Below are positions 2,600 to 56,202 of a stretch of 64,000 nt of DNA, piece by piece. A model generated the notes under the pieces. That model made no database searches. It had not been told where the DNA came from and saw nothing but the letters and a program-made list of their open reading frames with translations. Position 1 is the first letter of the stretch, and every line of letters begins with the position of its first letter. This DNA comes from Deltaproteobacteria bacterium (GTDB lineage: Bacteria > BMS3Abin14), in contig JAADHJ010000016.1 in assembly GCA_013151915.1 (NCBI GenBank), positions 1 to 64,000 on the forward strand, read 5' to 3'. The position numbers and the translations under genes were made by a program.

Positions 2600-2691
2600 T
2601 TCGATTTGCGCGCCCCTGAGTGGGCGCGTTGATGACTTTTTACGAAGTCATCAATTTTGATTGTGTCGTAAAGAGTCCATCAATGGTTTTT
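2600..2691 (-). repeat. HPE copy, partial (hairpins a, b, half c, plus e)
   Basis: Between panC and panD. Hairpin e remains at about 2661-2691 (GTCGTAAAGAGTCCAT), then hairpin a at 2631-2655, GCGCCCCTGAGTGGGCGC, and half of hairpin c. The end of panC, including its TGA at 2651-2653, lies inside it. Confidence 0.8.
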
Positions 2692-10852: not shown

Positions 10853-10900
10853 CTGACGCACTCCGACGAGCCTCGGCAAAGGAAATTGGATTTTTCTGAT

Positions 10901-10973
10901 TGATGGACTCGCAATAAGTACACCGATCAGGATGTGCGCGAATCATGTATCCTGGGGTAGGGGTGGAACCAGG
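10901..10973. repeat. Intergenic repeat, family E
   Basis: A ~73-bp patch containing TTGATGGACTCG, GATGTGCGCGAA and GGGGTAGGGGT followed by GAACCAGG. A second copy lies at 48517-48590 upstream of galU. It fills the gap between lysA and the small lipoprotein gene. No riboswitch-like structure was recognised. Confidence 0.55.
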
Positions 10974-12624: not shown

Positions 12625-13842
12625 CTACTTGTCCCGGGTCTTTGCCTGGGCGTTGATTCGCAGGCGCAGCGCGTTGACCTTGATAAAACCGGTGGAGTCG
12701 GCCTGGTCAAAGACCGATTCTTCCTCGAAGGTGGCGAAATCGTGCATATAGAGGGAATGGGGCGCCTTCCTCCCCACAACGCGGCAAGAGCCCTTGTAGA
12801 GCTTAATCCTGGCGGTTCCGGTTACGTCCCGTTGGGTCTCATCGATACACTTCAACATCCACTCCATCTCGGGGGAGAACCAATATCCGTTATAGATCAG
12901 CTCTGAAAATCGAGGGGTCAGGGAGTCCCTCAGATGCATCACCTCCCGGTCCATGGTCAGGGATTCCACCGCGCGGTGGGCATAATGGAGAATCGTCCCC
13001 CCCGGGGTTTCGTAAACGCCCCTGGACTTTATCCCGACATAGCGGTTTTCCACCATGTCAAGCCTGCCCACCCCGTGCCTGCCGCCTGCCTCGTTGAGAC
13101 TCTGGAGGAGATTGGCTGGGGACAACGCCTTCCCGTTCACGCTCACAGGAGTTCCGCCCTGGAAATCCACCGTTATGTACTCGGGAGTTTCCGGGGCGTT
13201 TTCAGGGGCTACAGTCAGGGTGAACATGGACTCGTCCGGCTCCTCCCACGGATCCTCCAGGATGCCCCCCTCATAGCTGATGTGGAGGAGGTTTCGGTCG
13301 CTGCTGTAGGGTTTGTCCTTGGTGACCGGGACGGGAATGTCGTGTTTCCTGGCATACTCCATGAGGGATGACCTGCTGCCAAGGTCCCATTCCCTCCAGG
13401 GGGCGATCACGGTAACGCCGGGCATCAGTGCGTGATAGCCCAACTCGAACCTGACCTGATCGTTCCCCTTTCCGGTAGCGCCATGGGCCACCGCGTCGGC
13501 ACCGACCCGCCTGGCGATATCGATCTGTGCCTTCGCGATAAGAGGCCGGGCGATGGAGGTGCCAAGCAGGTAGAACCCCTCGTAAATGGCGTTGCCTTTC
13601 AGGGCCGGAAAGACGAAATCCCTGACGAATTCTTCCTTGAGATCCTCGATGAAGACCTCGCTTGCCCCGGTCTTCAGAGCCTTTTCCCGGATGCCGTCCA
13701 TCTCATCGCCCTGGCCAAGGTCTGCCGCGAAGGCTACCACCTCACAACCGTATTCCTCCTTTAACCATGTAAGGATGACCGACGTGTCCAAGCCACCTGA
13801 GTAGGCGAGGACGGCCTTGTTTATCTCCGGTTTTGCCATCAT
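12625..13842 (-). CDS. argG: Argininosuccinate synthase
   Basis: ATP-dependent ligation of citrulline and aspartate. About 405 residues. N-terminal PP-loop [34 protein letters not shown] and [18 protein letters not shown] are typical, as is [20 protein letters not shown]. The start is the ATG at 13842, which overlaps the argF TGA in an ATGA arrangement with GGAG just before it. Confidence 0.97.
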
Positions 13843-14768
13843 TTCTCCCTCATCGTTAACAGCCACTCCAAAATGGCTTTCTGCGCGTGAAGCCGGTTTT
13901 CCGCCTGATCGAAAACGATGGAATCCGGATGTTCCATCATTTCATCTGTGATCTCCTCGCCCCTGTGAGCGGGCAGACAGTGCATTATCCTGGCGCCCGG
14001 GGCCGCGTCAAGGAGCTTTCCGTTGAGCTGGTAATCGGCCAGGTCGCGCCTTCGTTTCCCGGATTCTTCCTCCTGGCCCATGCTCGTCCATACATCGGTG
14101 TACAGGAACTGCGATCCCGCCGCGGCCTCGACCGGATCCCTCAGAACACGGACCGTCCCTCCATTTTCCGTAGCCCGCCTCTGCCCCTCAGCAAGGAAGG
14201 CCGGGTCGGGATCGTATCCGGCGGGACATGCAAGGGCGAGGTTAAGGCCCATGGCCGCGCAACCGATGATGAGGCTGTTGGCCACGTTGTTGCCGTCTCC
14301 GACATATGTAATCCTCGTGCCGGCCATCTGCACGGTGTATTCCTTAACCGTCAGTAGATCACCGACGATCTGGCATGGATGGGCCAGGTCCGTCAAGGCG
14401 TTGATGATGGGGATGCCGGCTTCTTTTGCCAGAATCTCCAATGTTTCCTGTGAGTAGGTTCTGATGACCAGGGCAGACAGGTACCGGGAAAGAACCCTTG
14501 CGGTATCGTTAAGGGGTTCACCCCGGGATAGCTGAACGTCCCTTGGACTCAGAAAAATGGACTGTCCGCCGAGCTGGTAGATTCCAACTTCAAAGGATAC
14601 CCGGGTTCTGGTTGACGGTTTTTCAAACAGAAGGGCAACGCTTTTGCCTATGAGAGGGCAGGAACTGTTCTGTCCCTTCGGTTGATGTTTCATCTCCCAG
14701 GCTCGCAGGACAAGTCCAGCCAGTTCCCCGGAGGTCAGATCGCGTAAAGTGAGAAAGTCCCTTTTCAT
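13839..14768 (-). CDS. argF: Ornithine carbamoyltransferase
   Basis: Makes citrulline from ornithine and carbamoyl phosphate. 309 residues. Carbamoyl-phosphate site [13 protein letters not shown], then [24 protein letters not shown], the ornithine-binding region [10 protein letters not shown] and the catalytic [12 protein letters not shown]. Overlaps argG by 4 bp. The gap to argD is occupied by a shortened HPE copy. Confidence 0.97.
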
Positions 14769-14787
14769 TCCAACGAGCCTTTCATTA

Positions 14788-14875
14788 ATAGGGCCGCAAA
14801 AAATCCATTCATGGCTTTTTCACTCCACGAAAAGTGAAAATGGGCGCGATGATGACTTCATGAAAAGTCATCATC
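14788..14875 (-). repeat. HPE copy, internally deleted
   Basis: Between argD and argF. Hairpins e and a are intact (CGCAAAAAATCCATTCATGG; GATGACTTCATGAAAAGTCATC). Hairpin d is reduced and c is missing. The last codons and TGA of argD (14858-14860) fall within hairpin a. Confidence 0.75.
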
Positions 14876-16060
14876 CATTGAAAGAACAACATCTTTAAGG
14901 TTGGCGAGAAGACCGCGGATATCCTTCTCCTCCACCGTTAGTGGAGGGGTGAACCTGAGGGTTTTCTCCTGGACGGCGGTCACGAGATAACCCCTTTTCA
15001 TCAGCGACTCAACTATGGGGCCCGCCTTGATTTTCAGCTCAAGGCCCAACAGGAGACCCGCTCCACGGACTTCCAGGGCCATGGGTGTTTGGCCGAGCAG
15101 TTCCTCGAGGCCTTGGCGAAGGATCTCCCCCACAACACGGGCCCTGCCGGGCAGATCCTCCGAAACGATGGTGTTGAGAGTGGCCAGGGCCGCCGAACAG
15201 GCCAGGGGATTTCCTCCGAAGGTGCTGCCGTGTGACCCGGGTCCAAGGTGTAACGCCACTTCCTCTTTGGCGAGCACGGCTCCGATGGGGAAGCCGTTCC
15301 CAAGCCCTTTGGCAAGGGTGACAATGTCAGGCGTTATTCCCATCAGTTCTGAAGCAAGGAGCGAACCGCATCTTCCCATTCCGGTCTGCACCTCATCCAT
15401 TATCATGAGGACCCCGCCCTCGCGGCATGCCCTTTCCGCTTCCCTTACAAAGTCCGGATCGATGGGGTAGACTCCGCCTTCACCCTGGATGGGTTCCATC
15501 AGGAAAGCGCAGGAGTGGGGAATGTGTTCCCTGAGAGCCGCCAGGTCACCTGCACGGATGTGGACAAACCCCTCCGGATATGGGGAAAAGGCCGCGTGGT
15601 GATGTTTGGGGTCGGTGGCCGTGAGGGCCTTCATTGTCCGGCCATGAAAGGCGCCGAGCAGACTGATCACCGTGCATCGTCCCGGACCGTGCTCCTCGTG
15701 TGCCCATTTACGTGCCGCCTTGATGGCGGCTTCAGCCGCCTCGGCGCCGCTGTTGCAGAAGAAAACACGATCCATGGATGTGAGGTCCGTCAGCCTTCGG
15801 GACAGCTCGACCTGGGGGGAGTTGAAGTACCAGTTGGAAACGTGAATAACCTTTTGCGCCTGTTCTCTGATCGCCTCCGTTACCGCGGGATGACAGTGTC
15901 CCAGGTTGCAGGTGGCGATTCCCGCGACGAAGTCGACATACTCGTTGCCATCCGTGTCCCACACCCTGCAGTTCTTTCCCCGCTCGATGACAATGGGGTA
16001 CTGCCGGTAATTGGGAAACAGCTTTTCTCTGCCCGTCTGAATGGTGCTGTCGGTGTCCAT
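14858..16060 (-). CDS. argD: Acetylornithine aminotransferase
   Basis: PLP class III aminotransferase converting N-acetylglutamate semialdehyde to N-acetylornithine; may also act in lysine synthesis. 400 residues. Motifs: VDFVAGIATCNLGHCHP, CNSGAEAAEAAIKAAR, GAFHGRTMKALTAT, EPIQGEGGV, MIMDEVQTGMGR, the Schiff-base TLAKGLGNGFPIGA and GSTFGGNPLA. The C-terminal DDDFS and the stop codon come from an HPE hairpin, so the native end was probably altered by its arrival. Confidence 0.95.
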   Translation of the reverse strand: MDTDSTIQTGREKLFPNYRQYPIVIERGKNCRVWDTDGNEYVDFVAGIATCNLGHCHPAVTEAIREQAQKVIHVSNWYFNSPQVELSRRLTDLTSMDRVFFCNSGAEAAEAAIKAARKWAHEEHGPGRCTVISLLGAFHGRTMKALTATDPKHHHAAFSPYPEGFVHIRAGDLAALREHIPHSCAFLMEPIQGEGGVYPIDPDFVREAERACREGGVLMIMDEVQTGMGRCGSLLASELMGITPDIVTLAKGLGNGFPIGAVLAKEEVALHLGPGSHGSTFGGNPLACSAALATLNTIVSEDLPGRARVVGEILRQGLEELLGQTPMALEVRGAGLLLGLELKIKAGPIVESLMKRGYLVTAVQEKTLRFTPPLTVEEKDIRGLLANLKDVVLSMDDDFS

Positions 16061-16086
16061 GGGATTGGCCCGCTCCTGAAAATGCG

Positions 16087-16968
16087 CTACTGGACGATCT
16101 CCGTCCCGATTCCCGTTTGGGTGAAAATCTCAAGAAGAATCGCGTGCTCGATACGTCCGTCAAGGATATGGACCTTGGGGACCCCTGCTTCCAGGGCGAA
16201 TGCCGCAGCTTCAACCTTGGGGATCATCCCTCCATGGATTGTCCCCTTCTCCATGAAGCTTCTGAGGTTTTTGATGGAAAGCGATGAGATGAGCTTGCCT
16301 GCCTCGTCCTGAATCCCGGGTACGTCGGTCATCAGGACAAGCTTCTCCGCATGGAGGGCCGCGGCCAGAGACCCGGCGACTGAATCCGCGTTTACGTTGT
16401 AGGTGTACCCTTCTTCGTCCATCCCCACAGGAGCGATGATCGGGATAAAATTGCTGTCATCCATCTTTCTGATGATCTCAGGATCGACCTTCCGGACCCT
16501 GCCAACCCTGCCCGGGTCGATGATCTCGGGGGGGCCGTCCTTCTGCGGTGTTCCCTCGAACATAATCTTCTCCACGGTAAAGAGCCCGCCGTCCTTGCCG
16601 GTCAAGCCGACGGCACGCCCGCCGTGTTTCTGAATGAGGGCTACGATGTCCTTGTTCACCTTCCCCCCAAGGACCATTTCGACGATATCCATCGTTTCCT
16701 CGTCGGTGATGCGGTGTCCGTGGACGAAACGGCTTTCTTTCCCCATCCTGGAGAGAGTCTGCCCGATCTGGGGGCCCCCTCCGTGGACTATCACGGGTTT
16801 GATGCCGATATATCGAAGCAGAATAATGTCCTCGGCAAACCTGGATCGAAGGGTTGGGTTGACCATGGCATGACCGCCATACTTGACGATGACGGTTTTA
16901 CCCCGGAACGCCTTGATATAGGGGAGTGCCTCAAGGAGTACGTTTGCCTTTTCTATGAGTTTTTTCAT
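16087..16968 (-). CDS. argB: Acetylglutamate kinase
   Basis: Phosphorylates N-acetylglutamate, the second and often feedback-controlled step of arginine synthesis. About 293 residues of the amino-acid kinase family: [45 protein letters not shown] and LMTDVPGI. The N-terminal helix ([19 protein letters not shown]) is as expected. A longer frame reaches 17130, but its first 54 codons are HPE sequence and are not protein. First gene of the arg-dap run. Confidence 0.95.
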
Positions 16969-16986
16969 TGCCTGACTTTCTATTTG

Positions 16987-17141
16987 GTAGTGTCGTAAAA
17001 AGTCCATCAATGGCTTTTTACTCCACGGAAAGCGAAAAGTGTCATTTTCACTTTCCTCACAAATCAACGACTTGCGTTGCAAGTCATTGATTTGCGCACC
17101 CTTTAAGTAGGTGCGTTGATGACTTTTCACGAAGTCATCAT
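16987..17141 (-). repeat. HPE copy 1 of a tandem trio
   Basis: Complete, with medium hairpin c (CAAATCAACGACTTGC / GCAAGTCATTGATTTG, 15 of 16 paired). Hairpin b reads CGCACC/GGTGCG, a paired change from CGCGCC/GGCGCG. The region 16969-17403, between argB and the double-GAF gene, holds only this trio. Confidence 0.9.
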
Positions 17142-17143
17142 TG

Positions 17144-17276
17144 ACAGGGTCGTAAAAAGTTCCTTAATGGCTTTTTACTCCACGGAAAGCGAAAAGTGTC
17201 ATTTTCACTTTTCTCACAAATCTTCGATTTGCGCGCCCCTTAAGTAGGTGCGTTGATGACTTTTCACGAAGTCATC
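17144..17276 (-). repeat. HPE copy 2 of a tandem trio
   Basis: Complete, with short hairpin c (CAAATCTTCGATTTG). It starts at GACAGGGTCGTAAAAAG, two bases after copy 1 ends. Confidence 0.9.
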
Positions 17277-17283
17277 TAATTTT

Positions 17284-17416
17284 GATATGGTTGTAAAAAG
17301 TCCATGAATGGCTTTTTACTCTACGGAAAGCGAAAAGTGTCATTTTCACTTTCCTCACAAATCTTCGATTTGCGCGCCCGTAAGTGGGCGCGTTGATGAC
17401 TTCTTACGAAGTCATC
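17284..17416 (-). repeat. HPE copy 3 of a tandem trio
   Basis: Complete, with short hairpin c and hairpin b GCGCCCGTAAGTGGGCGC. Its hairpin a (GATGACTTCGTAAGAAGTC on the minus strand) supplies the TAA stop of the double-GAF gene. Confidence 0.9.
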
Positions 17417-18945
17417 TTTTGTTGAAGCCTGGACAATGCCCGGGTCTTCTCCGTTGCCGACCGTGTGGCCTCATCAAGCTTCCTTTCCGTGGCAACGACC
17501 TCGTCGATGCTTCGGGTAAGGTTTTGATAAAGCCATGCGTTTTTCAGGCCCATGGATGCGTGGGGTGCCAATGAGGCAAGAATCTCCATATCCCAGTCAT
17601 CGAATGGCCGGCCGTCTTCCCTGTCGTAAAACGCCAGAATCCCGATGATGCTTCCCTTCAGCTTCAAAGGCATGGCAGCGATCATGTCGGCCTGAATGCA
17701 GCCAAGCAGGTCGGCTTTCCTGTCTACTCCATCACCTTCCATGGCATTGTTTATCTTTACGGATTTCCCCGTTTCCAGGACCTTTGCAAATATTCCCGTT
17801 CCGGGAGCGAAGGGTTCCGGCCTGAGGGAAACGTCCGATCTTGAACTTACCGCGCAGATGGCCAGTCGATCACCCTGGTCCTCCAGGGTCAGCAGAACGC
17901 AAAGGTTCGCCCTGAGGTTCGTCCTTATCTTGTCCACCAGGCTCTGGTAGATCTCCTCCGAGCTGTCGCTTGCGGCCATGGCGAAAACGACGTTGTTGAT
18001 AAACGTCAGCTTCAGGTTTTCCCTCTCGATCTTTCGGCTCACGGACAGATTGGCGATTTCCATGGACAAAAGATGCGTGAAAGTGTTGAGAATGGCCAGA
18101 TCGCTTTCGGTAAAGACACTTCCATCAATTTTGTCATTGGCACTGATGGCACCTACCACCTTCTTGTTGAAAAGCAACGGCGTGCAGACAAAGGAAGGCG
18201 AGTCATACTGTTTTGAAAACCGGGCCAGCTTTATCCTCTTGTCCGTGTTGACATCCTTGATAAGGACCGGCTTACCGTTTCGGACGACCCATCCGGAGAC
18301 CCCTTTTAAAACAGGCTGATGGATGGACTGCATGATTTCCGGGCTCATCCAGGTTGACTGGGCCATCATGAGTTCCTTACCGTTTTTGTCCAGGAGCATC
18401 ATGGATACCTTCCTGGTCTCCATCACATCTGCCATCAGATGGAGGGTCTTCTTCAGGAACTTGTCCTCGCGGATGATATCCTCCTGGAGGAATTCATCCA
18501 TTCTAAAGGAGGTCAGTTGACCAGCATGCATTTCCAGGAGGCGAAGGCGTTCGAACTGTTTTTCCCCACTCCTTTTCAGACGGCTCTTTTCCATGACGTT
18601 TCTGACGGCGAGCAGGACCTCCTCGGAATTGAACGGCTTCTGAATGATATCCGCGGCTCCCCTGGCCAAGGCCAGAGCGGAGGCCTTCCGGTCCTCCCTT
18701 CCCATCAGCATGATAACAGGCTGTCCGGGCCTGTATTTCCGCATGGCGATGAGGGTGTCCGTTCCGGACAGGCCCGGCATCCTGTCAGCGAGAAAAACGA
18801 GATCGAAGGGGTCCGAACTCCTCACGGCGCTGATACCTTGTTGGCCGTCGGCAGCCTCCTGGATGGAAAAACCCTCACTGGACAGAAGGTCCCTAAGGGC
18901 CTGTCTGTGGATATTCTTGCTCTCTACCAACAGCGCACGTTTCAT
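17404..18945 (-). CDS. Receiver-like protein with two GAF domains (degenerate receiver)
   Basis: A 513-residue cytoplasmic signalling protein. Residues 1-115 have a receiver fold, but the phosphorylation site is eroded: the usual LLDxxMPG reads FLADRMPGLSG, with Ala at the phospho-acceptor position. The N-terminal acidic pair is Glu-Ser (LLVESKN), and the conserved Thr region reads LMGRED. The conserved Lys (QKPF) is kept. Two GAF domains follow (~165-310 with GVSGWVVRNGKPVLIKD and CTPLLFNKKVVGAIS; ~330-480 with GTGIFAKVLETG and MPLKLKGSIIGILAF), then a short coiled coil. There is no output domain. The last residues KMTS and the stop lie in an HPE hairpin. Probably a phosphorylation-independent sensor or scaffold; its partner is unknown. 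Confidence 0.8.
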   Translation of the reverse strand: MKRALLVESKNIHRQALRDLLSSEGFSIQEAADGQQGISAVRSSDPFDLVFLADRMPGLSGTDTLIAMRKYRPGQPVIMLMGREDRKASALALARGAADIIQKPFNSEEVLLAVRNVMEKSRLKRSGEKQFERLRLLEMHAGQLTSFRMDEFLQEDIIREDKFLKKTLHLMADVMETRKVSMMLLDKNGKELMMAQSTWMSPEIMQSIHQPVLKGVSGWVVRNGKPVLIKDVNTDKRIKLARFSKQYDSPSFVCTPLLFNKKVVGAISANDKIDGSVFTESDLAILNTFTHLLSMEIANLSVSRKIERENLKLTFINNVVFAMAASDSSEEIYQSLVDKIRTNLRANLCVLLTLEDQGDRLAICAVSSRSDVSLRPEPFAPGTGIFAKVLETGKSVKINNAMEGDGVDRKADLLGCIQADMIAAMPLKLKGSIIGILAFYDREDGRPFDDWDMEILASLAPHASMGLKNAWLYQNLTRSIDEVVATERKLDEATRSATEKTRALSRLQQKMTS

Positions 18946-18965
18946 TTTTCTTCCACTCTATTATT

Positions 18966-19114
18966 TGGTCGCAAAAAGTCCATTCGTGGCTTTTTGCTCA
19001 ACGGAAAGCAAAAGTGTCATTTTCACTTTCCTCACAAATCAATAACCTGCGTTGCAAGCCATTGATTTGGGCGCTCATTACAGGGCGCTTTGATGACTTT
19101 TTGCGAAGTCATGA
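18966..19114 (-). repeat. HPE copy, complete
   Basis: Fills the gap between hslU and the double-GAF gene. Hairpin c is the medium form (CAAATCAATAACCTGC / GCAAGCCATTGATTTG, with mismatches). Hairpin b is GCGCTC/GGGCGC. Hairpin e starts GGTCGCAAAAAGTCC. Confidence 0.85.
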
Positions 19115-19128
19115 ATCCAGGCTACAGG

Positions 19129-20472
19129 TCAAAGGATGTATCGGCTGAGGTCCTCATCTCCGACCACATCGGCCAGCCTTTCCCGAACGTATTGCGAATC
19201 GATACTGATCTTCTCGTCCGTGAGATCAGGGGCGGTAAAAGATACCTCCTCCAGAAGCTTTTCCATGATTGTGTGAAGCCTCCTGGCTCCAATATTCTCG
19301 GTACGGGTATTAACCTCCTCGGCCATCCGCGCGATTGTCTCGATTGCATCGGAAGAGAATGAGAGCTCCAGCCCCTCGGTGTGGAGAAGCTCGGTGTACT
19401 GGAGGATCAATGCGTTTTCAGGCTCGGTGAGAATGCGGACAAAATCCTCCCGTGTCAACGGGTCAAGCTCCACCCTTATTGGGAAACGCCCCTGAAGTTC
19501 CGGCAGCAGGTCCGATGGCTTTGTCCCGTGGAACGCCCCGGCGGCGATAAACAGGATGTGATCGGTCTTGATCATTCCGTGTTTGGTGGTGACGGTTGTC
19601 CCCTCAATTATGGGAAGCAGGTCCCTTTGTACACCCTCTCGGGAAACGTCCGGCCCCTGACCGCCCGTTCCGCCGGAAATTTTGTCGATCTCATCCAGGA
19701 AGATAATGCCGTTCTGCTCAACCCGTACAATGGCTTCGGAGACTACCTTGTCCATGTCGATGAGTTTCTGAGCCTCCTCCTCGGCAAGAATTCCGGCCGC
19801 TTCAGGAATCCTGACCTTGCGCGTTTTTTTTCTTCCAGGAAAGAGGCTGCCCATCATGTCCCTGATATTGAAATCCATACCCTCCATGCCGGGGCCGCTG
19901 AATATCTCAACAAGAGGTTTGGACCTCTCCTCCACCTGGATCTCCACTTCACGATCGTCCAGGTTACCGTTGCGAAGCATTGCCCGGAGCTTCTCCCTCG
20001 TGTCTGCGCTCGGGGTTTTCTCCTCCTCGGGGCCGGTGTGCCTGACGGCGCTGCGGGGAAGGAGCAGTTCGAGGGTTCTCTCTTCGGCCAGTATTTCGGC
20101 CCTCTCCCTGACGGATGTGGTGTGTTCCTCACGGACCATCTTGATGGTCAGCTCCATTAGGTCGCGGACCATGGATTCGACATCTCTGCCCACGTAGCCC
20201 ACTTCCGTGAATTTTGTGGCTTCCACTTTGAGAAATGGTGAATCAGCCAGATTTGCGAGGCGTCTGGCAATCTCGGTCTTGCCGACTCCGGTGGGGCCCA
20301 TCATGATAATATTTTTTGGAGCTATCTCATCCCTTAGTTCCTCCGGAACCTGACGTCTTCTCCATCGGTTTCTCAGGGCGATGGCCACGGATTTTTTTGC
20401 CCGTTCCTGCCCGATTATGAACCGGTCCAGGCTGTCAACAATCTCTCTCGGGGTAAAATTTTTGTGTGTCAT
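19129..20472 (-). CDS. hslU: HslU, ATPase of the HslUV protease
   Basis: AAA+ unfoldase that feeds substrates to HslV. About 447 residues. N-terminal [17 protein letters not shown], Walker [38 protein letters not shown] (pore loop), inserted I-domain at ~120-230, Walker [12 protein letters not shown], sensor and arginine finger GRFPIRVEL, and the C-terminal LSRYIL that docks into HslV. The ATG at 20472 is chosen; ten upstream codons are non-conserved. Directly after hslV. Confidence 0.97.
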
Positions 20473-20485
20473 AAGATAGGAACCC

Positions 20486-21013
20486 TTAACCCAACTCTTC
20501 AACGTGGATCTGGTCGTTGGTGTAAATACAGATCCCGGAGGCGATCAGAAGCGCCTCATTGACAATTTCCACCGCCGTCATATCCGTATGTTTAATAAGC
20601 GCTTCGGCGGCCGCCCGGGCGTAAACCCCCCCGGATCCAATAGCAAGAATCCCCCCCTCGGGCTCCAGGACATCCCCGGTGCCGGAGATGAGGAAGAGAT
20701 CATCCCGGTCACAGACAGCCATGAGGGCTTCCAGCCGTCTGAGGACCTTGTCGGTGCGCCAGTCTTTTGCCAGTTCAACGGCAGCCCTGGACAGGTTGCC
20801 GGAATATTGATCCAGTTTCTTCTCGAACCGTTCGAAGAGGGTGAAAGCGTCGGCGGTGGCTCCAGCGAACCCCGCCAGAATTTTGCCCTGGTACAGTGTC
20901 CGAACCTTTCGGGCCGTATGCTTGATGGTCGTATCGCCCAAGGTGACCTGGCCATCGCCGCCCATGGCTACTTTTCCATCCCGCATGATGGCCAGTACAG
21001 TGGTGCCCTTCAT
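20486..21013 (-). CDS. hslV: HslV, peptidase of the HslUV protease
   Basis: Proteasome-related threonine peptidase. 175 residues. The N-terminus [21 protein letters not shown] places a catalytic Thr after a short MKG leader that must be removed. [28 protein letters not shown] and the C-terminal [14 protein letters not shown] are typical. AAGGGG precedes the ATG. It overlaps xerC by 4 bp (ATGA). The xerC-hslV-hslU order is a known conserved arrangement. Confidence 0.97.
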
Positions 21014-21912
21014 ACTTTTTCCCCTTTTGTCGATGCCCTTGGATGGCTCTGGTCATAGACATCCAGCAGGCGTTCCAGCGTCACATGTGTGTATCTTTGG
21101 GTCGTTTCCAGACTTTCATGGCCCAACATTTCCTGAATGGACCTGATATCGGCTCCGCTGTCAAGAAGGTGGGTGGCGAATGTGTGTCTCAGCACATGCG
21201 GGCTGACCCGGTTGTTCAAACCGCAGGCCCTGAGCCTTTTTTCCAGGCGTTTCTGGATACTGCGAACCGTCAGACGCGTGCCCCTTGTGCTCAGGAAAAT
21301 GGGGGCATCCCCTCTTGCCGGTGGCCACCGATCGGTGGCCGTCAGGTATGCCTTCATCCTCTCCACGGCCTGCCTGCCCAGGGGGACGATACGTTCCTTG
21401 CTTCCTTTTCCCATCACTCTCACGGTCTGTCCCTCATGGTCCCAATCCGACAGGTTCAGGCCCGCCAGTTCGCTGACCCTTATGCCGGAGCTGTACAGAA
21501 GCTCCCAAAGGGCGAGGTCCCGGAGATCAATGGACCGATGGCCGGACGGGCTGTCGAGCAGCGCATTGATCTCATCCATGTTCAGAAACCGTGGTGTTCT
21601 TCGGCCGCCGCGCGGAGCCGGAATACCGTCGCACGGATTAAAGCTGATGAGCCCCTCCCTGACCATGTACCGGCTGCAGGAACGTACGGCCGAGATCTTT
21701 CTGGCCATACTGGAGCGGGCAAGGCCCCTTCGGAAAAGATAGCCCACGTAGGAACGGACCGATTCAGGAGCATCCGGCCCCATCCGCTTTTCGGAAAGGT
21801 ATCGTCGATATTCCCTGAGGTCCCTCCGGTAGGCGGATACAGTGTGGGATGAGGCACCCTGTATGTCGGACAGATACTGAAGGTATTTTTCCACGAATGT
21901 CCAATCCTGCAT
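21010..21912 (-). CDS. xerC: Tyrosine recombinase XerC
   Basis: Site-specific recombinase for chromosome dimer resolution at dif. 300 residues. N-terminal SAM-like domain ([20 protein letters not shown]), then catalytic Arg in [13 protein letters not shown], Lys beta-hairpin [30 protein letters not shown] (His-x-x-Arg), [15 protein letters not shown] (His/Trp position) with nucleophile Tyr. Upstream of hslV in a conserved cluster, so a housekeeping role is more likely than a phage integrase. No dif site was identified in the window. Confidence 0.93.
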
Positions 21913-22014
21913 GGAACTTTCCCCCCCGTTCGCTTAAAAACGGCTCTATAAGGGAAAACCGGTCCAAAAGCCATTAGTAAACCAACAGTATATTTCACTT
22001 GATTTTCAATGTCC

Positions 22015-22076
22015 AGAATTGAGGACTTCTTGCGAAGTCCTCAATTCGCCCATTTAAGGGCCTTTTTACAACCCTA
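22015..22076 (+). repeat. HPE fragment with compensated hairpin a
   Basis: Reads TTGAGGACTTC-TTGC-GAAGTCCTCAA: both arms of hairpin a differ from the common form (T to G and A to C), so pairing is kept. Then a reduced hairpin b and end e (CTTTTTACAACCCTA), which supplies the TAG stop of trmFO (22074-22076). The rest of the gap to xerC shows nothing else. Confidence 0.7.
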
Positions 22077-23390
22077 GCAGGATGGGACATCGGACAGATA
22101 TGCCCTCATATGTTCCAGTGCTCTTTCGGCAAAGGCCTCTTTTCTAGCTGCCTTGCCAAGTGGAGGGCCATCTATGGGCGGCAGGAGGCCGAACTGGGCA
22201 TTGACCGGCTGAAAACCACCCCGGGGAGAAAAGGAAAGCCGTCCCAGCAGGGCACCGATCATGGTGGTAACCGGCGGCGGGGAGGGGGTTCCACCAAAAA
22301 TTTTCCATGCGGTATAAATTCCGGACATCGCCCCACTGGCGATGGATTCGACATACCCCTCGACACCGGTAATTTGCCCGGCGAAAGACAGCCATGGAGC
22401 CGAAGAGGCCCTCTGAAATTGATCCAGCAGGGCCGGCGCATTGATGAAGGTGTTGCGGTGGATACTTCCTAAACGTTCAAAGACAGCCCTTTCCAGCCCC
22501 GGGATCATTCTGAAAATCCTCTCCTGCTCGGATTGCCTGAGCTTGGTCTGGAATCCGACCATACCGAAGAGCGTTTTACCCCGGTTTTCGGGCCGGAGCT
22601 GAACGACGGCATAGGGCCTGCGGCCCGTCATCGGATCGGACAACCCCACAGGCCTCATGGGTCCGAACGCCAAAGTCCTGTCGCCTCTCGAGGCGAGAAC
22701 CTCCACGGGCAGACACGCCTCAAAGAGGTTCTCCTCCTCAAAGTGGTGAGGAAGAACAGTCGCACCCGTGCGAAGGGCTTCCACCAGATTCAGGTAATCC
22801 CCCTTCCGGAGGGGACAGTTGACATAGGATCCCACTCCCTGTTCCCCGTAACGGTCCTGGATGAATACCTTTTCCCAGTCGATGGAATCCGATTCTATGG
22901 TTGGGGCAATGGCATCATAAAAGGCCAGAGCGCCCTCGCCCAGGAGCCCTTCGATGTCGGCGGCGAGGATGTCGGATGTCAAAGGGCCCGTCGCGATGAT
23001 GGCGGGACCTTCAGGGGGAAGGGATGTCATCTCATCACGAAAGACGGTGATGCCGTCGTTTTTTTCGATGGATTCCGTTACCAGGCGAGCGTATTCCAGA
23101 CGGTCGACACACAGGGATGATCCCCCGGGGATGGAGGCTTCTTCAGCTAACCGGATGAGCAGGGAATCGGCAAGCCTGAGCTCGGCTTTCAGAAGACCGC
23201 CGGCCCTGTCGACACGGTTGGATTTAAGGGAATTGCTGCAGACCAGCTCTCCGAGGTCCCCGGTCCTGTGGGCGGGGGATCTGCGGAGGGGCCTCATCTC
23301 GTACAGGTGAACCGGAATTCCTCTCCTTGCGATCTGCCAGGCGGCCTCACATCCGGCAAGTCCCCCTCCAATAACCTTAACCGGAAGCAT
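22074..23390 (-). CDS. trmFO: Folate-dependent tRNA (uracil-54-C5)-methyltransferase
   Basis: FAD enzyme that makes ribothymidine at tRNA position 54 using methylene-tetrahydrofolate. 438 residues. FAD motif VKVIGGGLAGCEAAWQIARR, then LYEMRPLR, LVCSNSLKSN, ALAFYDAIAPTIESDSID, GSYVNCPLRKGDY, LPVEVLASRG, GRRPYAVVQLRPEN and QITGVEGYVESIASG. Its start overlaps the end of topA by 14 bp, the usual topA-trmFO pairing. Stop codon in an HPE fragment. Confidence 0.96.
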   Translation of the reverse strand: MLPVKVIGGGLAGCEAAWQIARRGIPVHLYEMRPLRRSPAHRTGDLGELVCSNSLKSNRVDRAGGLLKAELRLADSLLIRLAEEASIPGGSSLCVDRLEYARLVTESIEKNDGITVFRDEMTSLPPEGPAIIATGPLTSDILAADIEGLLGEGALAFYDAIAPTIESDSIDWEKVFIQDRYGEQGVGSYVNCPLRKGDYLNLVEALRTGATVLPHHFEEENLFEACLPVEVLASRGDRTLAFGPMRPVGLSDPMTGRRPYAVVQLRPENRGKTLFGMVGFQTKLRQSEQERIFRMIPGLERAVFERLGSIHRNTFINAPALLDQFQRASSAPWLSFAGQITGVEGYVESIASGAMSGIYTAWKIFGGTPSPPPVTTMIGALLGRLSFSPRGGFQPVNAQFGLLPPIDGPPLGKAARKEAFAERALEHMRAYLSDVPSC

Positions 23391-25632
23391 CCACCTGCAT
23401 CCGATACTTACATTCCTTTCTGGGACAAGCCAGATACTCCCCGCCGCGGGTCACCTTCCGGGTCATGACGGTATTCCCGCATTCCGGGCATGGGTGGGAT
23501 ACAGGCTCGTCCCAGAGGGCGTATTTGCATTTGGGGTAACTGGAGCAGCCGTAAAAGGTCCGGCCCTTCCGACTCCTTTTGACCACCAGCTCACCGTCAC
23601 AGCCATCCTCCGGACAGTGTACCCCGGTGGAAAGCGGCAGGGTGCCGCGGCATTCGGGATAGCGGGTGCAGCCGATAAAGGGGCCGCCACGTCCCTGCCT
23701 GAGGACCATCGGGCTGCCGCATTGGGGACAGCGCTCCTCAACCTCCTGTTCCTGGACCAGTTCGATGCTTCCATCGGATGCCTTTTTGAAATTGGAGGTG
23801 AACTTACATTCGGGATATCCGGAGCATGCCAGGAATTCCCCGGTTTTTCCGCTCATTTTTATCTGAAGAGGTTTCTGGCAGTCCGGGCACTGCATGTCGG
23901 TCATACCCCAGGCATAGGCATCACCGGCCGTTTCCGCTTCCAGAAGTTCCTGGGTAAAGGGGTTGTAAAATCCGGAAAGCATTTCGGTATAGGTCTTGTT
24001 GCCCTCCGCGATGCTGTCGAGCTGATCCTCCATGTCGGCGGTAAACTTAACGTCAACCAGGCGGGGAAACCTCGATACGAGATAATCATTCACGGCCATT
24101 CCAAGGGTCGTGGGAAGAAAGCGTCTTTGTTCCTTGATAACGTAACTGCGTTTCTGAATGGTTTCGAGGGTGGCGGCATAGGTGCTGGGCCGCCCGATCC
24201 CTTTTTCCTCCAGGATCTTTACCAGTGTGGCTTCCGTAAATCTTGGTGGCGGCTGAGTTGTCTTTTTTTCCACCTCAACATCAACAAGGGTAAGTTTCTG
24301 CCCTTTTTTCATGGGCGGAAGGGTAGGACCTCCGTTGGCTTCATCATCCCTTCCCTCCTCGTACAGGGCCGTAAACCCGTTAAAGATGGTAACCTGACCG
24401 GCCACCTGAAGGCCGAAGGGGCCGGCCTGGATTGACACAAGGGTTTTTTCCAGAATGGCGTCCGCCATTTGGGATGCGATAAACCTCTTGTAGATAAGTT
24501 CATAAAGCCGTGCCTGGTCCTTATTCAGGTATTGTGCGGCGGTCTTCGGGTCCAGTTCGGGATTGGTGGGGCGAATGGCCTCATGGGCATCCTGGGCACC
24601 CTTCCTGTTGCGGTAGGTCCTAGGGGTTTTCGGAAGGTGGTCCGGGCCGAAGACGCGGGCTATCTCCTGACGGGCCCCATCGATCGCTTCCTTCGACACA
24701 CGAAGGGAGTCGGTCCGCATATAGGTGATCAGTCCGGTTGTTCCGGCATTTCCGAGGGCCACGCCTTCGTAGAGCTGCTGGGCGATCATCATGGTCTTCT
24801 TGGCTGTGAATCGAACCTTCCTCGCCGCATCCTGCTGCAGGGTACTTGTAATGAAAGGAGGAGCGGGACTACGATGGACTTTTTTTACCTGGATATCGGT
24901 GATTGAATGGAGCTCTTTCCTGAGCCGGGCCTGAACCTCCAGGGCATGGGATTCATCCGACAAGCGGTTTTTCGTTCCCCCGATCCGTTCGTTATCGACG
25001 GATATCAAACGGGCCTTTATCTCCGGGGGCTGGTCGGCTTTCAGGTGCGAGAAGATGAGCCAGTAGTTCTCCGGGGAAAAGGCGATAATATCCTTCTCCC
25101 TTTCACATATAAGTCTAAGGGCAACCGACTGTACCCTGCCTGCGGAGATGCCCCTTTTGATTTTTTTCCACAGGACCGGGCTTACTTTATACCCCACAAG
25201 CCGGTCGATGGCGCGCCGCGCCTGTTGGGCCTCAAACTTCAGTTCATCGGGCCTTCCGGGGTTCTCAATGGCTTTTAGAATACCTTTTTTGGTTATCTCG
25301 TGAAAAAGGACCCGGTATACTTTGTCCTCGGGGATTTTGAGATGCCTGGCGATAAGGACCGCAATGGCTTCGCCTTCCCGGTCCGGGTCCGAGGCAAGCA
25401 GGACCCTGTCGGCATCGCTTGCCGCCTTGGAGATCTGGCTGAGGATCTTCCTCTTGCTGGGTATCACCCTGTTTTTTAGAGCGAAACCTTTTTCCGGATC
25501 GACGGCAAGTTCCTTGGCGGGAAGATCAATGACGTGGCCGTTGGAGGAAATCACCTCGTATCCCTCGGGAAGGATCCGACCGATGGTCTTCGCTTTAGTG
25601 GGTGATTCTACGATTATAAGAGATTTTGACAT
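23377..25632 (-). CDS. topA: DNA topoisomerase I
   Basis: Type IA topoisomerase that relaxes negative supercoils. 751 residues. TOPRIM N-terminus SLIIVESPTKAKTI with SDPDREGEA, catalytic Tyr in GLITYMRTDSLRVS, EKGIGRPSTYA and NDYLVSRFP. The C-terminus has four zinc-finger modules: CPDC..CSGYPEC, CPQC..CTRYPEC, CPEDGC..CSSYPKC and CPEC..CPRKEC (residues ~580-745). GAGGAA precedes the ATG. Transcribed with trmFO. Confidence 0.97.
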   Translation of the reverse strand: MSKSLIIVESPTKAKTIGRILPEGYEVISSNGHVIDLPAKELAVDPEKGFALKNRVIPSKRKILSQISKAASDADRVLLASDPDREGEAIAVLIARHLKIPEDKVYRVLFHEITKKGILKAIENPGRPDELKFEAQQARRAIDRLVGYKVSPVLWKKIKRGISAGRVQSVALRLICEREKDIIAFSPENYWLIFSHLKADQPPEIKARLISVDNERIGGTKNRLSDESHALEVQARLRKELHSITDIQVKKVHRSPAPPFITSTLQQDAARKVRFTAKKTMMIAQQLYEGVALGNAGTTGLITYMRTDSLRVSKEAIDGARQEIARVFGPDHLPKTPRTYRNRKGAQDAHEAIRPTNPELDPKTAAQYLNKDQARLYELIYKRFIASQMADAILEKTLVSIQAGPFGLQVAGQVTIFNGFTALYEEGRDDEANGGPTLPPMKKGQKLTLVDVEVEKKTTQPPPRFTEATLVKILEEKGIGRPSTYAATLETIQKRSYVIKEQRRFLPTTLGMAVNDYLVSRFPRLVDVKFTADMEDQLDSIAEGNKTYTEMLSGFYNPFTQELLEAETAGDAYAWGMTDMQCPDCQKPLQIKMSGKTGEFLACSGYPECKFTSNFKKASDGSIELVQEQEVEERCPQCGSPMVLRQGRGGPFIGCTRYPECRGTLPLSTGVHCPEDGCDGELVVKRSRKGRTFYGCSSYPKCKYALWDEPVSHPCPECGNTVMTRKVTRGGEYLACPRKECKYRMQVDASG

Positions 25633-25683
25633 GGATTCCTCGGATCATGATTTATGTTTATTCCGGCACGGTTACGGAAGAGC

Positions 25684-25830
25684 CTTTTTACGACCCATCA
25701 ACGCGCCCGGCGAGGGTGCCCAAATCAATGGCTTGCATGGCAAGTCGTTGATTTGTGAGGAAAGTGAAGATGACACTTTTCGCTTTCCGTTGAGTAAAAA
25801 GCCGCGAATGGACTTTTTACGACTCATCAT
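25684..25830 (+). repeat. HPE copy with hairpin a replaced, opposite to its genes
   Basis: Between dprA and topA, both on the minus strand, yet the element reads on the plus strand. Hairpins c (medium), d and e are clear. Hairpin a is replaced by CTTTTTACGACCCATCAACG, as if the e end of another copy had fused to it. Confidence 0.85.
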
Positions 25831-25903
25831 AATGGTTAGGTTCTAAACAGGATGCCGGTCAAATTGTCAACATCTTTTTATTCCGGGTTTCCACACCTCC
25901 ATA

Positions 25904-26096
25904 CCTCGATACTTTGATATCTCGACACGCCCCCACGCCCGTACTCCCATATTGCCCTTCCGCCGATGCGCTCTTCGTCTTCGCGTCTCCGTGTCCGCCT
26001 TTCCCTCTGGACTCTGGACTCTGGACACTGGACTCTGGACTCTGGACACCCTGTCGCGCCGTAGCTTCAGCGAAGGTGGATGGACGTTGGACTCCG
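25904..26096. repeat. Direct repeat DR1 with CTCTGGA tandem tract
   Basis: Contains CTCGATACTTTGATATCTCG, GCGCTCTTCGTCTTCG, a tract of about six CTCTGGA/CACTGGA units (26005-26050), then CACCCTGTCGCGCCGTAG and TTCAGCGAAGG. The same blocks in the same order and orientation recur at 32248-32380. It directly abuts the end of dprA. The gap 25633-26100 holds only this and an HPE copy. Confidence 0.7.
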
Positions 26097-26100
26097 GGTT

Positions 26101-26952: not shown

Positions 26953-26976
26953 TCGGTGTCCCTCAAGCATTGTGTC

Positions 26977-29121: not shown

Positions 29122-29233
29122 TTTATTCCTCCGTGTTTTAATTAGCGCCTATAATTTTACAAGCAAGATCGGGACCAACCTGCGGGGACAACACTCGGAA
29201 AATTATCCATGCCGCGGTGGTGGAAATTTATCA

Positions 29234-29320: not shown

Positions 29321-29327
29321 GATTCAA

Positions 29328-29403
29328 AGGGCGCCCTCCTTGGGCGCGGTGATGACTTTTTACGAAGTCATCAACTTTTATATGATCGTAAAAAGTCATC
29401 ATC
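29328..29403 (-). repeat. HPE fragment after tRNA-Leu(CAG)
   Basis: Hairpin b (GGGCGCCCTCCTTGGGCGC), hairpin a (GATGACTTTTTACGAAGTC) and end e (ATCGTAAAAAGTCATC). The GC hairpin could act as the tRNA terminator. Its last bases provide the TGA of the HAD gene. Confidence 0.75.
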
Positions 29404-30010: not shown

Positions 30011-30055
30011 TACGACGTTTCCATATCCTCTGTTGATAGGGTCGTAAAAAGTCCA

Positions 30056-30161: not shown

Positions 30162-30179
30162 CAAGCTAAAGGCAAGGCG

Positions 30180-33596: not shown

Positions 33597-33733
33597 TTGA
33601 TGACTTCGTTAAGAAGTCATCAATGCGCCCATTGAGGGGCGCGCAAATCGAAGATTTGTAAGGAAAGTGAAAATGACATTTTTCGCTTTCCGTGGAGTAA
33701 AAAACCATGGATGGCCTGTTTACGACCCAATCA
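33597..33733 (+). repeat. HPE copy, complete, in the tRNA-Val leader
   Basis: All five hairpins with short c (CAAATCGAAGATTTG). It occupies almost exactly the space between the promoter and tRNA-Val and would form the 5' leader of the tRNA precursor. Confidence 0.9.
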
Positions 33734-39157: not shown

Positions 39158-39291
39158 TTGATGACTTCGTTAGAAGTCATCAACGTGCCCACAGAAGAGC
39201 GCGCAAATCGAAGATTTGTTAGGAAAGTGAAAATGACATTTTTCGCTTTCCGTGAAGTAAAAAACCATGGATGGATTTTTTACGACCCTAT
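39158..39291 (+). repeat. HPE copy, complete, upstream of gap
   Basis: Short hairpin c, full d and e. Hairpin b is weak here (GTGCCC/AGCGCG). It would lie in the 5' leader of gap if transcription starts at or before 39140. A GGAGCG/CGCTCC hairpin follows at 39311-39328. Confidence 0.85.
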
Positions 39292-39354
39292 TTATGGTCA
39301 AAATTTTTTAGGAGCGCCCCGTCGCTCCCGGATCCTGGAAGGAGGGATGAGTTC

Positions 39355-44266: not shown

Positions 44267-44423
44267 GTGATGACTTCTCAAGAAATCATCACTGCGCCCA
44301 TTGAAGAGCGCCCAAATCAATGATTTGCAGGGCAAGTTGTTGATTTGTGAGGAAAGTGAAAATGACACTTTTCGCTTTCCGTGGAGTAAAAAGCCATAAA
44401 TGGACTTTTTACGACCCTATCAT
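44267..44423 (+). repeat. HPE copy, complete, opposite to its genes
   Basis: Hairpin c is the medium form and fully paired using G-U (CAAATCAATGATTTGC / GCAAGTTGTTGATTTG). Lies between two minus-strand genes. An extra e end (TTTTTACGACCCTATC) follows at 44422-44438. Confidence 0.85.
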
Positions 44424-44528: not shown

Positions 44529-44575
44529 TTGATGACTTCGAAAAAAGTCATGGATGGACTTTTTACGATCCTATC
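44529..44575 (+). repeat. Minimal HPE (ends only)
   Basis: TTGATGACTTCGAAAAAAGT runs directly into ATGGACTTTTTACGATCC: hairpin a joined to end e with b, c and d absent. The same minimal form is seen at 47632-47681. The stretch 44424-44592 holds nothing else. Confidence 0.75.
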
Positions 44576-44592
44576 AAAATGTTGCCCGTTTT

Positions 44593-46302: not shown

Positions 46303-46400
46303 GGCATGTCCTCCTGTAAAGTTGATGGACCCGCAAAAAGTCCAACGGGGTAAAAAACGTTCAACGTTCAACGTGATAAAGAACGTTCAATGTTCATGTT

Positions 46401-46535
46401 GATAGGGTCGTAAAAAGTCCTTTCATGGCTTTTTACTCCACGGAAAGCGAAAAGTGTCATTTTCACTTTCCTCACAAATCTTCGATTTGTGCGCCCCCAA
46501 TGGGCGCCTTGATGACTTCGTAAGAAGTCATCAAG
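46401..46535 (-). repeat. HPE copy, complete
   Basis: Between the rubredoxin-like gene and the PerR/Fur gene. Short hairpin c, hairpin b GCGCCCCCAATGGGCGC, hairpin a CTTGATGACTTCGTAAGAAG. Preceded by AACGTTCAACGTTCAACG patches at 46358-46390. Confidence 0.9.
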
Positions 46536-47631: not shown

Positions 47632-47681
47632 GTTGATGACTTCGCAAAAAGTCATTAATGGACTTTTTACGACCCTATCAA
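47632..47681 (+). repeat. Minimal HPE (ends only)
   Basis: TTGATGACTTCGCAAAAAGT followed by CATTAATGGACTTTTTACGA: hairpin a fused to end e, as at 44529-44575. Confidence 0.75.
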
Positions 47682-54037: not shown

Positions 54038-56100
54038 TGGGGCATCGAATACTCGTTGTGGATGACAGCCCTTTTATCCATGAATTGGTGAAAGATATCC
54101 TCCGCCGTGAGGGGTGTGAGGTTGAGAGGGCTATGAACGGGCATGAGGCCATGGTTTCCATCGGGCAGAATCCACCTGACCTGGTTCTTCTCGACATCAT
54201 CATGCCTGAGATGAGCGGCTATCAGGTATGCCGGCTTATCCGGAGTGATGACCGCCTGAAGGATCTGCCGGTGGTTATGATGACAGCGAAGGACACCCAG
54301 AAGGACCGGTTCTGGGGAATGGAGGTTGGGGCTGATGCCTACGTCACTAAACCCATTGAGGAGAAGAATCTTCTTAAAACCATTTCTTCCCTTCTGAAGG
54401 AGGCCAGAACCCCTGCGAAACCGGTTGGTCGTGATGAATTGACAAGCGAAACCCTCAAGGGACGCGCGGACGATATCCTCGAGAGAAAGCTGCTCGAATT
54501 AACCATCATCAACGAGGTCGGCAAGCTGTTTTCGCTCCTGGACAAGCCCAAAACCCTGTTGCAGAGCTGTCTCCAGCTTGTTTCAAAGGTCATTGATTAC
54601 GATCTTGGTGTTGTTTTTCTCGCATTCCCGGAAGCCGACTTCAAGACCGTTGCGATAAGGACGCGAAACGTCCCCCTGAAGGTATCCAAAAAAGAGCTTC
54701 TACGAAGAGGCGGCGAAAATTTAGGTCTGCATAGGGGATGTAACAGGTCGAAGATCGCCGCCCTGACTACGGAACTGATCGAGGATAGTGAAATTGAAGA
54801 AAAGACTTTCCGCAGGCCCTCCCTTTCCAGCCTGGAAGTTGTTCTGAGATCCTCCATGGATGTCCTGGGCAGCGTCATGCTCTTCAGCAACCGAAAGGAT
54901 TTTTTTATTGAGGATGACCGCAACCTGGTTGAGATGATTGGTGTTCAGCTGTCCATACTTCTGGACAACCTTTTTCTGCTGCAGGAACGTGACCGGCAGC
55001 TCGCTACCCTGGAGCTTGAGAAGAACCGCGTGGAGGCGATCCTCCAGAACATGGGGGAGGGTGTACTTGTGACGGACTGGTCATACAGGATCATTCACGC
55101 CAATCCACTGGCTCACCATCTGCTCGATATGGATGACGGTGAGTTGGTCGGCCATGTCCTGTTCGATCATGTCCCGAAGGACATCTTCAGCATTCTGGAA
55201 AAACAGCACATTGGGGAGAAGAACCCCACCTGGAATATCAAATTCAGCTCCATCAGGGGAGAACTGCCCCTTATGGCCAGTGTCGCTGTGGTCGATGAGG
55301 AAGAAGAACAGACCCTGGGACTTATCATTCTGCTGCGCGACATTACCGTGGAGAGGGAACTCGACCGCATGAAGAACAAGTTTCTTCAGAATGTCTCAAA
55401 CCACCTGAGAAATCCCCTGGCCGCACTGAAAGGGTTCACCGACCTGATGCGTGGGGAGATGTACGAACCGGCGACGTCCCGGCAGAAAGAATACATGGAT
55501 TCCATCGAATCCGAGACGGCCAAGCTCATCGAGATCGTCGAGGATCTCCTGAGTCTTTCGAGGATTGAACTGGCCGATTACAGGTTTCGCGCGGAGAAAT
55601 TCGCTGTTTCGGACGCCCTGCTCACCGCCATGGTAAGTACACAGGACATCGCCCGGGGCAGAGGGATAACCCTCAAGACCGAAGTATCCGAAGATCTGCC
55701 CAAGGTTTTTGCGGATCGTGACAGTGTGGTGGACATAACAACCCGCCTGGCGTCCAACGCAATAAAGTTCAGCCCCGACGATAGGGATGTCATCATTGGC
55801 GCCAGGCTGGGCGGGGATGACGGCAACGGGAAAATAGTGGAGGTCTTCGTGCGCGATGCTGGGCCCGGCGTCCCCCTGGACAAGCGGGATTCCATCTTTG
55901 AGAAATACCCTGCCGATCACCTTTTCACCGAAAGCCGCCGGGAAGGTGTTGGGCTTGGACTGCCCATATGCAGGCAGCTGGTCGAAATGAACGGTGGGAG
56001 GATTCATCTGGAATCGACCGGGGAATCCGGGAGCACCTTCATTTTCACCCTTCCACTTGCCGAGGAGAATGCGCCCCGCTTGGGGCGTCCAAATCAATGA
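54037..56100 (+). CDS. Hybrid histidine kinase (REC-GAF-PAS-kinase)
   Basis: About 687 residues, soluble. Receiver ~1-125 (ILVVDDSPFIH, LVLLDIIMPEMSG, MTAKD, VTKPI), GAF ~155-320, PAS ~335-440 (GVLVTDWSYRIIHANPLAHH), kinase ~455-680. The H-box is unusual, NVSNHLRNPLAALKGFTDL instead of SHELRTPL, though the His is kept. N-box LASNAIKFSPDD; G2 box REGVGLGLPICRQLV. The start ATG overlaps the previous TGA (TGATG). The C-terminal APRLGRPNQ and the stop are encoded by an HPE copy. Confidence 0.9.
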   Translation: MGHRILVVDDSPFIHELVKDILRREGCEVERAMNGHEAMVSIGQNPPDLVLLDIIMPEMSGYQVCRLIRSDDRLKDLPVVMMTAKDTQKDRFWGMEVGADAYVTKPIEEKNLLKTISSLLKEARTPAKPVGRDELTSETLKGRADDILERKLLELTIINEVGKLFSLLDKPKTLLQSCLQLVSKVIDYDLGVVFLAFPEADFKTVAIRTRNVPLKVSKKELLRRGGENLGLHRGCNRSKIAALTTELIEDSEIEEKTFRRPSLSSLEVVLRSSMDVLGSVMLFSNRKDFFIEDDRNLVEMIGVQLSILLDNLFLLQERDRQLATLELEKNRVEAILQNMGEGVLVTDWSYRIIHANPLAHHLLDMDDGELVGHVLFDHVPKDIFSILEKQHIGEKNPTWNIKFSSIRGELPLMASVAVVDEEEEQTLGLIILLRDITVERELDRMKNKFLQNVSNHLRNPLAALKGFTDLMRGEMYEPATSRQKEYMDSIESETAKLIEIVEDLLSLSRIELADYRFRAEKFAVSDALLTAMVSTQDIARGRGITLKTEVSEDLPKVFADRDSVVDITTRLASNAIKFSPDDRDVIIGARLGGDDGNGKIVEVFVRDAGPGVPLDKRDSIFEKYPADHLFTESRREGVGLGLPICRQLVEMNGGRIHLESTGESGSTFIFTLPLAEENAPRLGRPNQ

Positions 56101-56202
56101 CTCGCAACCTAATGTCATTGATTTGCGAGGAAAACGAAAACGACGTTTTTCGCTTTCCGTTGAGCAAAAAGCCACGAATGGACTTTTTGCGACCATATCA
56201 AG
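56070..56202 (+). repeat. HPE copy, lacking hairpin a
   Basis: Hairpin b GCGCCCCGCTTGGGGCG, hairpin c CAAATCAATGAC/GTCATTGATTTG (12 bp, perfect), hairpin d and hairpin e. It begins inside the 3' end of the upstream kinase gene and ends 10 bases before the next ATG. Confidence 0.85.

Follow-up and report, generated by a model that had tools for sequence, protein, structure and literature searches.

Copies of the element in the window

The locus at 16985-17416 of the window (the whole 64,000-nucleotide stretch that was analysed) holds three tandem, head-to-tail copies of an intergenic five-hairpin element, here called HPE. A sequence-only reading had listed 17 places in the window where this element or parts of it occur, and all 17 carry HPE or HPE parts. 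These are given below with their strand and, where available, their score against a covariance model.

2600..2653, +, fragment of hairpins d and e, the last three bases of which are the panC stop codon
3555..3730, +, full copy of 176 bp, hairpin c the longest (136.5 bits)
14786..14873, +, internally deleted copy retaining a and e
16985..17140, +, full copy with a long hairpin c, 156 bp (170.4 bits; alignment)
17142..17277, +, full copy with a short hairpin c, 136 bp, second in the three-copy array (139.2 bits)
17283..17417, +, full copy with a short hairpin c, 135 bp, third in the array (150.6 bits)
18961..19114, +, full copy whose site is empty in the sister genome G001 (164.2 bits)
22020..22061, -, degenerate fragment
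25677..25829, -, near-full copy, its right end altered (127.7 bits)
29329..29373, +, fragment of hairpins d and e
33598..33733, -, full copy adjoining the tRNA-Val gene at 33740-33814 (139.4 bits)
39159..39293, -, full copy (140.0 bits)
44268..44422, -, species-specific full copy, part of whose left end is duplicated next to it (175.0 bits)
44530..44576, -, short 47-bp form with the left end joined to the right end (4 mismatches)
46400..46533, +, full copy (150.7 bits)
47634..47680, -, short 47-bp form with the left end joined to the right end (exact consensus)
56050..56200, -, copy truncated at its right end (107.8 bits)

The hairpin order a-b-c-d-e that had been read from the sequence stands, while the reported length of 130-185 bp can be refined to classes of approximately 135, 155 and 175 bp, governed mainly by hairpin c. 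The outer ends are indeed an inverted pair, but they had been placed too far inward: the true ends lie 6-9 bp beyond the TCGTAAAAAGTCC of the earlier reading. They read TGAT...ATCA, mostly with a T just before and an A just after. The right end of the third array copy (17283..17417) supplies the stop codon of the gene at 17404-18945, in another frame (offset -14). The internally deleted copy at 14786..14873 lies between an ornithine carbamoyltransferase gene and the next gene of an arginine cluster, in which argF and argB were identified. The two 47-bp forms were considered as proof that the ends suffice for mobility, and this argument was dropped because direct repeats, ATGGCTTTTTAC in hairpin a and ATGACTTTTTAC in hairpin e, permit deletion in place.

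Other repeats share the window. One of approximately 84-125 bp occurs at 10890-10973 and 48496-48620, with ten matches in 463 kb; the copy at 48496 holds TTGATGGACTCGTAAAAAGTCCATCAA, a palindrome close to the HPE right end, and may be an HPE relative or a composite. An intergenic repeat at 26033-26093 and 32319-32379 (93% alike) contains GCCGTAGCTTCAGCGAAGG, in which GTAG is combined with a hairpin in the manner of REP sequences. Another intergenic repeat is centred around GATAAGGCGCATTGTTTCACCACAGTGCAGCCGTTCGGAGGCTGCTCCACAG (544-578, 42882-42950 and 47853-47892; 14 matches in 463 kb). Finally, a protein of 193 residues is encoded at 32532-33113 (+); its tandem repeats, 21 residues each, are of the type KRRGRPPKAAASAGTSKAAAP with AT-hook-like RGRPPK motifs, and its tail is histone-H1-like.

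Copy number and distribution

The earlier count of about twenty copies was too low. A covariance model built from HPE copies finds at least 150 matches across the 2.27-Mb genome to which the window belongs, and further copies in its relatives. The sister species (G001) has far fewer, with 57 matches, of which approximately 18 are strong. The copies have a median nearest-neighbour identity of 0.93 and a mean identity of 0.87, indicating that many are young.

By DNA search, HPE is present in 11 of 12 sampled genomes of its phylum, all from one family; G002 is the one without it. No match was found by DNA search in any of 49 genomes of other lineages, with two exact patterns in IMG/VR, or by blastn in plasmids, phages and 5,426 E. 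coli genomes. E. coli genomes contain ERIC and BIME. Against Rfam, only tRNAs in the window scored above the gathering threshold, the best score for the array being far below it. The earlier reading had not recognised HPE as a named family, and no match to one was found across Rfam, the ERIC- and BIME-bearing E. coli genomes, plasmids and phages.

Ends, target site and insertion

The left border of HPE reads TGATAGGGTCG[T/C]AAAAAGTCC, also written TGATAGGGTCG[T/C]AAAAAGTC, and the right border reads GACTT.TT.CGAAGTCATCA, ending in GTCATCA. The two borders are inverted copies of one another, imperfect at a block of four differing bases: TGATAGGGTCGCAAAAAGTC and the reverse-complemented right end, TGATGACTTCGCAAAAAGTC, agree at 16/20 positions.

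Insertion is accompanied by a 4-bp target duplication. This is exact in 13 of 66 singletons, where 1.3 would be expected with permuted partners, and none of 5000 permutations attained 13. The flanks show a consensus of T-C-A at -7 to -5, A at -4, T at -1, A at +1 and T at +5, from which a palindromic target, TCA|AYNT|TGA, can be derived.

Presence and absence of insertions were compared between two species of one genus. The sister genome is collinear and approximately 85% identical, and window positions 13000-32000 align to its contig C8 with gaps at the elements. It lacks several of these insertions, among them the three-copy array and the copy at 18961, and its flanks are joined there. Examples of empty sites are those of window 16971-17418 and 18965-19126, L062:13889 and L076:6919. 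An orthologous place was found for 49 clusters; 22 have readable borders, some of the sister's sites being too diverged to read, and at nearly all of the 22 the sister either lacks the element or retains only a short remnant. Certain insertions are common to both species, such as L076:19832 and L094:7516, which share the same flank.

Head-to-tail arrays

All HPE arrays are head-to-tail. In the 463-kb sample of the home genome, 16 spacers separate intact ends that face each other, and 14 of these measure exactly 4 bp, the same as the target duplication; some further arrays have other spacers. Neighbours within arrays are 0.92 alike, compared with 0.83 for random pairs.

Such arrays could arise from tandem dimers formed during transposition, or from slippage between duplicated target bases. 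Transposition of the IS21, IS30 and IS3 types is known to involve dimers whose spacer is short and fixed, and the likeness to HPE arrays is one of workings rather than membership. That preformed dimers were inserted, as opposed to slippage after insertion, is a reasonable candidate which we hold at somewhat below even odds. It agrees with the uniform head-to-tail order, with the 4-bp spacer in most arrays, and with the array at L016, where ACTT flanks the array at either end but ATAT forms the spacer, which looks like insertion of a whole dimer. At L035 and L074:11020, however, the same 4 bp occur at all three places, as slippage predicts, and a truncated copy terminates many arrays, which also speaks against the dimer route. 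The choice concerns only how arrays form.

Five-hairpin structure

The ordered hairpins a-b-c-d-e form the minimum-free-energy fold in most single copies tested, in agreement with what had been read from the window. In the third array copy, the folded hairpins are as follows.

17293..17319, +, hairpin a, GTAAAAAGTCCATGAATGGCTTTTTAC
17325..17354, +, hairpin b, GGAAAGCGAAAAGTGTCATTTTCACTTTCC
17358..17372, +, hairpin c, short form, CAAATCTTCGATTTG
17373..17392, +, hairpin d, CGCGCCCGTAAGTGGGCGCG
17395..17416, +, hairpin e (right end), GATGACTTCTTACGAAGTCATC

Single copies form the five hairpins separately on either strand, with z-scores of -6 to -10 relative to dinucleotide shuffles; DNA parameters were also run. 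An exception is the L051 copy, from another genus, in which the best fold pairs the two ends.

Pairing in these hairpins goes far beyond chance. Across 33 copies from eleven genomes, 94.0% of pairs in the five-hairpin structure are standard, and 11 pairs show two-sided compensation, against 4.0 in shuffles. The covariation score was reached by none of 500 shuffles, a control that leaves relatedness in. Sliding partner columns by 1 to 3 positions, which preserves relatedness, lowers the paired cells to 38-52%. Between genera, compensated pairs are seen in b, c and d as well. Variation at pair 12-38 falls into CG and UA subfamilies and is inherited in part. The strand asymmetry of G-U versus A-C pairs was set aside as evidence because a single inherited change dominates this signal.

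Gene context and stop codons

Context and density were assessed in the 463-kb sample, using 411 genes from a simple home-made hexamer-scored caller. The 78 HPE clusters fall into 55 codirectional, 9 divergent and 3 convergent spacers, with 6 inside gene calls and 5 at edges, and HPE occupies about a quarter of the codirectional gene gaps sampled. In codirectional spacers, the element is antisense to the genes by 40:15 (p 0.001).

The contact between HPE and coding sequence is often exact. Both ends of the element read TGA inward, and at 16 intact ends in this sample the stop codon of the upstream gene is exactly the first three bases of HPE. Frames at intact ends are distributed 16:3:5 (offsets of -3, approximately -14 and approximately -37; p 0.0009 if frames were equal). 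An ANNT-TGA context is present at just 17 of 385 gene ends, and HPE therefore brings this context about in most cases instead of meeting it ready-made.

Orthologs indicate what insertion does to the protein. One was found for 10 of the 16 sites at offset -3, and 7 of the 10 end at the same residue. At three of these seven (L062:14042, L070:2994 and L078:18545) the sister's gene uses TAA or TAG, which implies that insertion swapped the stop codon for TGA and left the protein untouched; those at L062 and L078 also have a readable empty site. A sister gene ending in TGA provides no test of such a swap, since an ancestral insertion may be shared. Insertion at the TAA and TAG sites thus kept the protein unchanged, and elsewhere it adds a short tail. 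At offset -37, a tail of the type DDFAKSHxRAx is appended to some proteins, as in the change from ...PRFED* to ...PRFEDDDFAKSHHRAR*. C-terminal tails of this type, encoded by the HPE right end, were seen on otherwise conserved proteins at L074:18827, L060:18153 and L066:2441.

The target duplication, the supply of stop codons by HPE and the rule of tandem spacing are additions to what had been read from the window.

Search for a mobilising enzyme

No autonomous element with HPE ends was found among genes for Y1_Tnp, DDE_Tnp_1, rve or DDE_Tnp_1_4, and scanning the flanks of transposase genes for HPE ends returned only chance-level neighbours. The home genome has no DDE_Tnp_1, DDE_Tnp_1_4 or IS1380-type genes, and no multi-copy insertion sequence occurs in 463 kb of it. 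It carries one rve gene (L129) with other inverted repeats, one decayed IS3-like element (L126) with other ends, and two intact single-copy genes for Y1 transposase-like proteins of 317-329 residues (G000 C37:12697 and C44:52255; L102 and L107). The transposase acting on HPE is probably of the DDE type, as the short, fixed target duplication suggests.

Relation to known repeat families

HPE has the attributes of a miniature inverted-repeat transposable element (MITE). It is short, lacks coding capacity and is present in high copy number, with terminal inverted repeats, 4-bp target duplications, and filled and empty sites. This agrees with the earlier suggestion of a non-autonomous mobile element.

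Among described families, a close parallel in gene context comes from QMITE1 and QMITE2 of Coxiella burnetii, small MITEs with approximately 50 copies or more, located at gene 3' ends and having strong folds (PMC5896051). Overlaps of 2-3 bp provide just the stop codon in some genes there, including ubiB and CBU_2020 (PMC5896051). HPE resembles them in all three respects, as a MITE at gene 3' ends that supplies stop codons and folds strongly. The two differ in size, and the parts of the QMITE account consulted describe direct repeats of 2-3 or 7-11 nt with variable sequence, with neither a fixed palindromic target nor fixed-spacer head-to-tail arrays (PMC5896051). Chunjie of Geobacter uraniireducens is described as a recently active MITE of 178-235 bp, mostly intergenic and with one copy in an operon; it is like HPE as an intergenic MITE, a comparison of descriptions rather than of sequences (PMC10969869).

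The YPAL/RU-2 repeats of Yersinia are, like HPE, intergenic; they are approximately 168 bp and strongly palindromic, with targets near dyad symmetry and known filled and empty sites (PMC2229807). Their duplications are 3-26 bp and their inverted repeats are internal (PMC2229807), whereas HPE duplicates 4 bp and has its inverted repeats at the termini. ERIC, Correia/NEMIS and RUP are likewise mobile repeats of intergenic regions, short and without coding content, whose inverted ends fold, and most have TA at their ends and a stem formed from the two ends (PMC2229807). HPE differs from them in its TGA...TCA ends, its five local hairpins and its 4-bp duplication, which is AYNT rather than the TA seen in ERIC, Correia and RUP (PMC2229807).

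MITEs at gene 3' ends that give no more than the stop codon (QMITE), and dyad-symmetric targets with empty sites (YPAL/RU-2), have already been described (PMC5896051, PMC2229807). What appears to be new in HPE is that it combines a fixed target containing a stop triplet, ends that restore the stop codon in both orientations, fixed-spacer arrays, a five-hairpin interior and restriction to one phylum-level lineage; this set of traits was not found described in the open-access literature searched.

In its modular, multi-hairpin, tandem organisation, HPE also recalls BOX of pneumococcus and REP/BIME. REP units bear a GTAG motif and are linked to RAYT genes, and neither feature was found for HPE.

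Origin and role of the element

We interpret HPE as a non-autonomous DNA transposon (a MITE) of approximately 135-175 bp that is moved in trans, and assign this explanation a probability of roughly 0.8. HPE inserts with a 4-bp duplication at TCA|AYNT|TGA and spreads within the genus. Because both ends read TGA inward, a gene ending in ...ANNT plus any stop codon that is hit there still ends at the same residue. Stop restoration, together with selection against hits within genes, would lead the element to settle touching gene 3' ends. The five hairpins would thereby join the 3' region of the mRNA or the intercistronic spacer, where they would most likely serve as a stability structure or weak attenuator.

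The multi-hairpin palindromic units, their arrays and their intergenic location, along with the Y1_Tnp genes at C37 and C44, would also suit a REP/BIME-like array spread by a RAYT (a Y1 transposase) acting on single-stranded hairpins without target duplication. We regard this as the least probable of the readings considered here. HPE has 4-bp target duplications and lacks a GTAG motif at the hairpin foot, and the 1.5 kb around each of the two intact Y1 genes of the home genome contain no copy, which led us to reject a RAYT link. G002, moreover, lacks HPE despite its two Y1 genes, and G010 and G011 carry HPE but gave no Y1 match. It is also very unlikely that HPE is no transposon but a host RNA element (a terminator or 3' stabiliser) that gene conversion or duplication has multiplied and selection has maintained. 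Such an origin would account for the covarying hairpins, the antisense bias and the contact with stop codons; against it, insertion is indicated by the target duplications and by the fact that most of the orthologous positions with readable borders are empty, and copies also occur in divergent spacers and inside some genes.

A different challenge concerns the function step of the transposon explanation, and not the identification as a MITE. HPE may have no current role, its hairpins reflecting recent ancestry and the needs of transposition at the DNA level. The many young copies and the partly inherited CG and UA subfamilies favour this view, which we give a little less than an even chance; compensated pairs in b, c and d across genera, and orientation bias relative to genes, are harder to reconcile with it. 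That HPE has an effect at the mRNA level we take to be about an even bet. A putative mRNA 3'-end role would fit the position touching upstream stop codons, the compensated changes in hairpins b, c and d, and the 40:15 bias towards antisense. The hairpins do not look like classical terminators, as the U runs sit inside stem a, and T after some e hairpins is a chance feature of the flank. The copy at 14786 within the arginine cluster would argue against full termination at every copy.

A bolder formulation, which we advance as a rather improbable speculation, is that HPE is a self-neutralising, stop-codon-directed transposon. It would insert at the stop codon, regenerate it in either orientation, give mRNAs genome-wide a new 3' end in the form of its five-hairpin cassette and spread in tandem with a duplication-length junction, and its enzyme would be an unrecognised transposase of the candidate phylum.

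For the biology of this lineage, HPE represents a way for a bacterial MITE to exceed 150 copies without breaking genes, since the target motif and the element ends together restore the stop codon. The many insertions that are not shared between sister species would be useful for marking genomes of an uncultured lineage. Many of the lineage's 3'-end structures would have been installed by one mobile family, should the hairpins act in mRNA.
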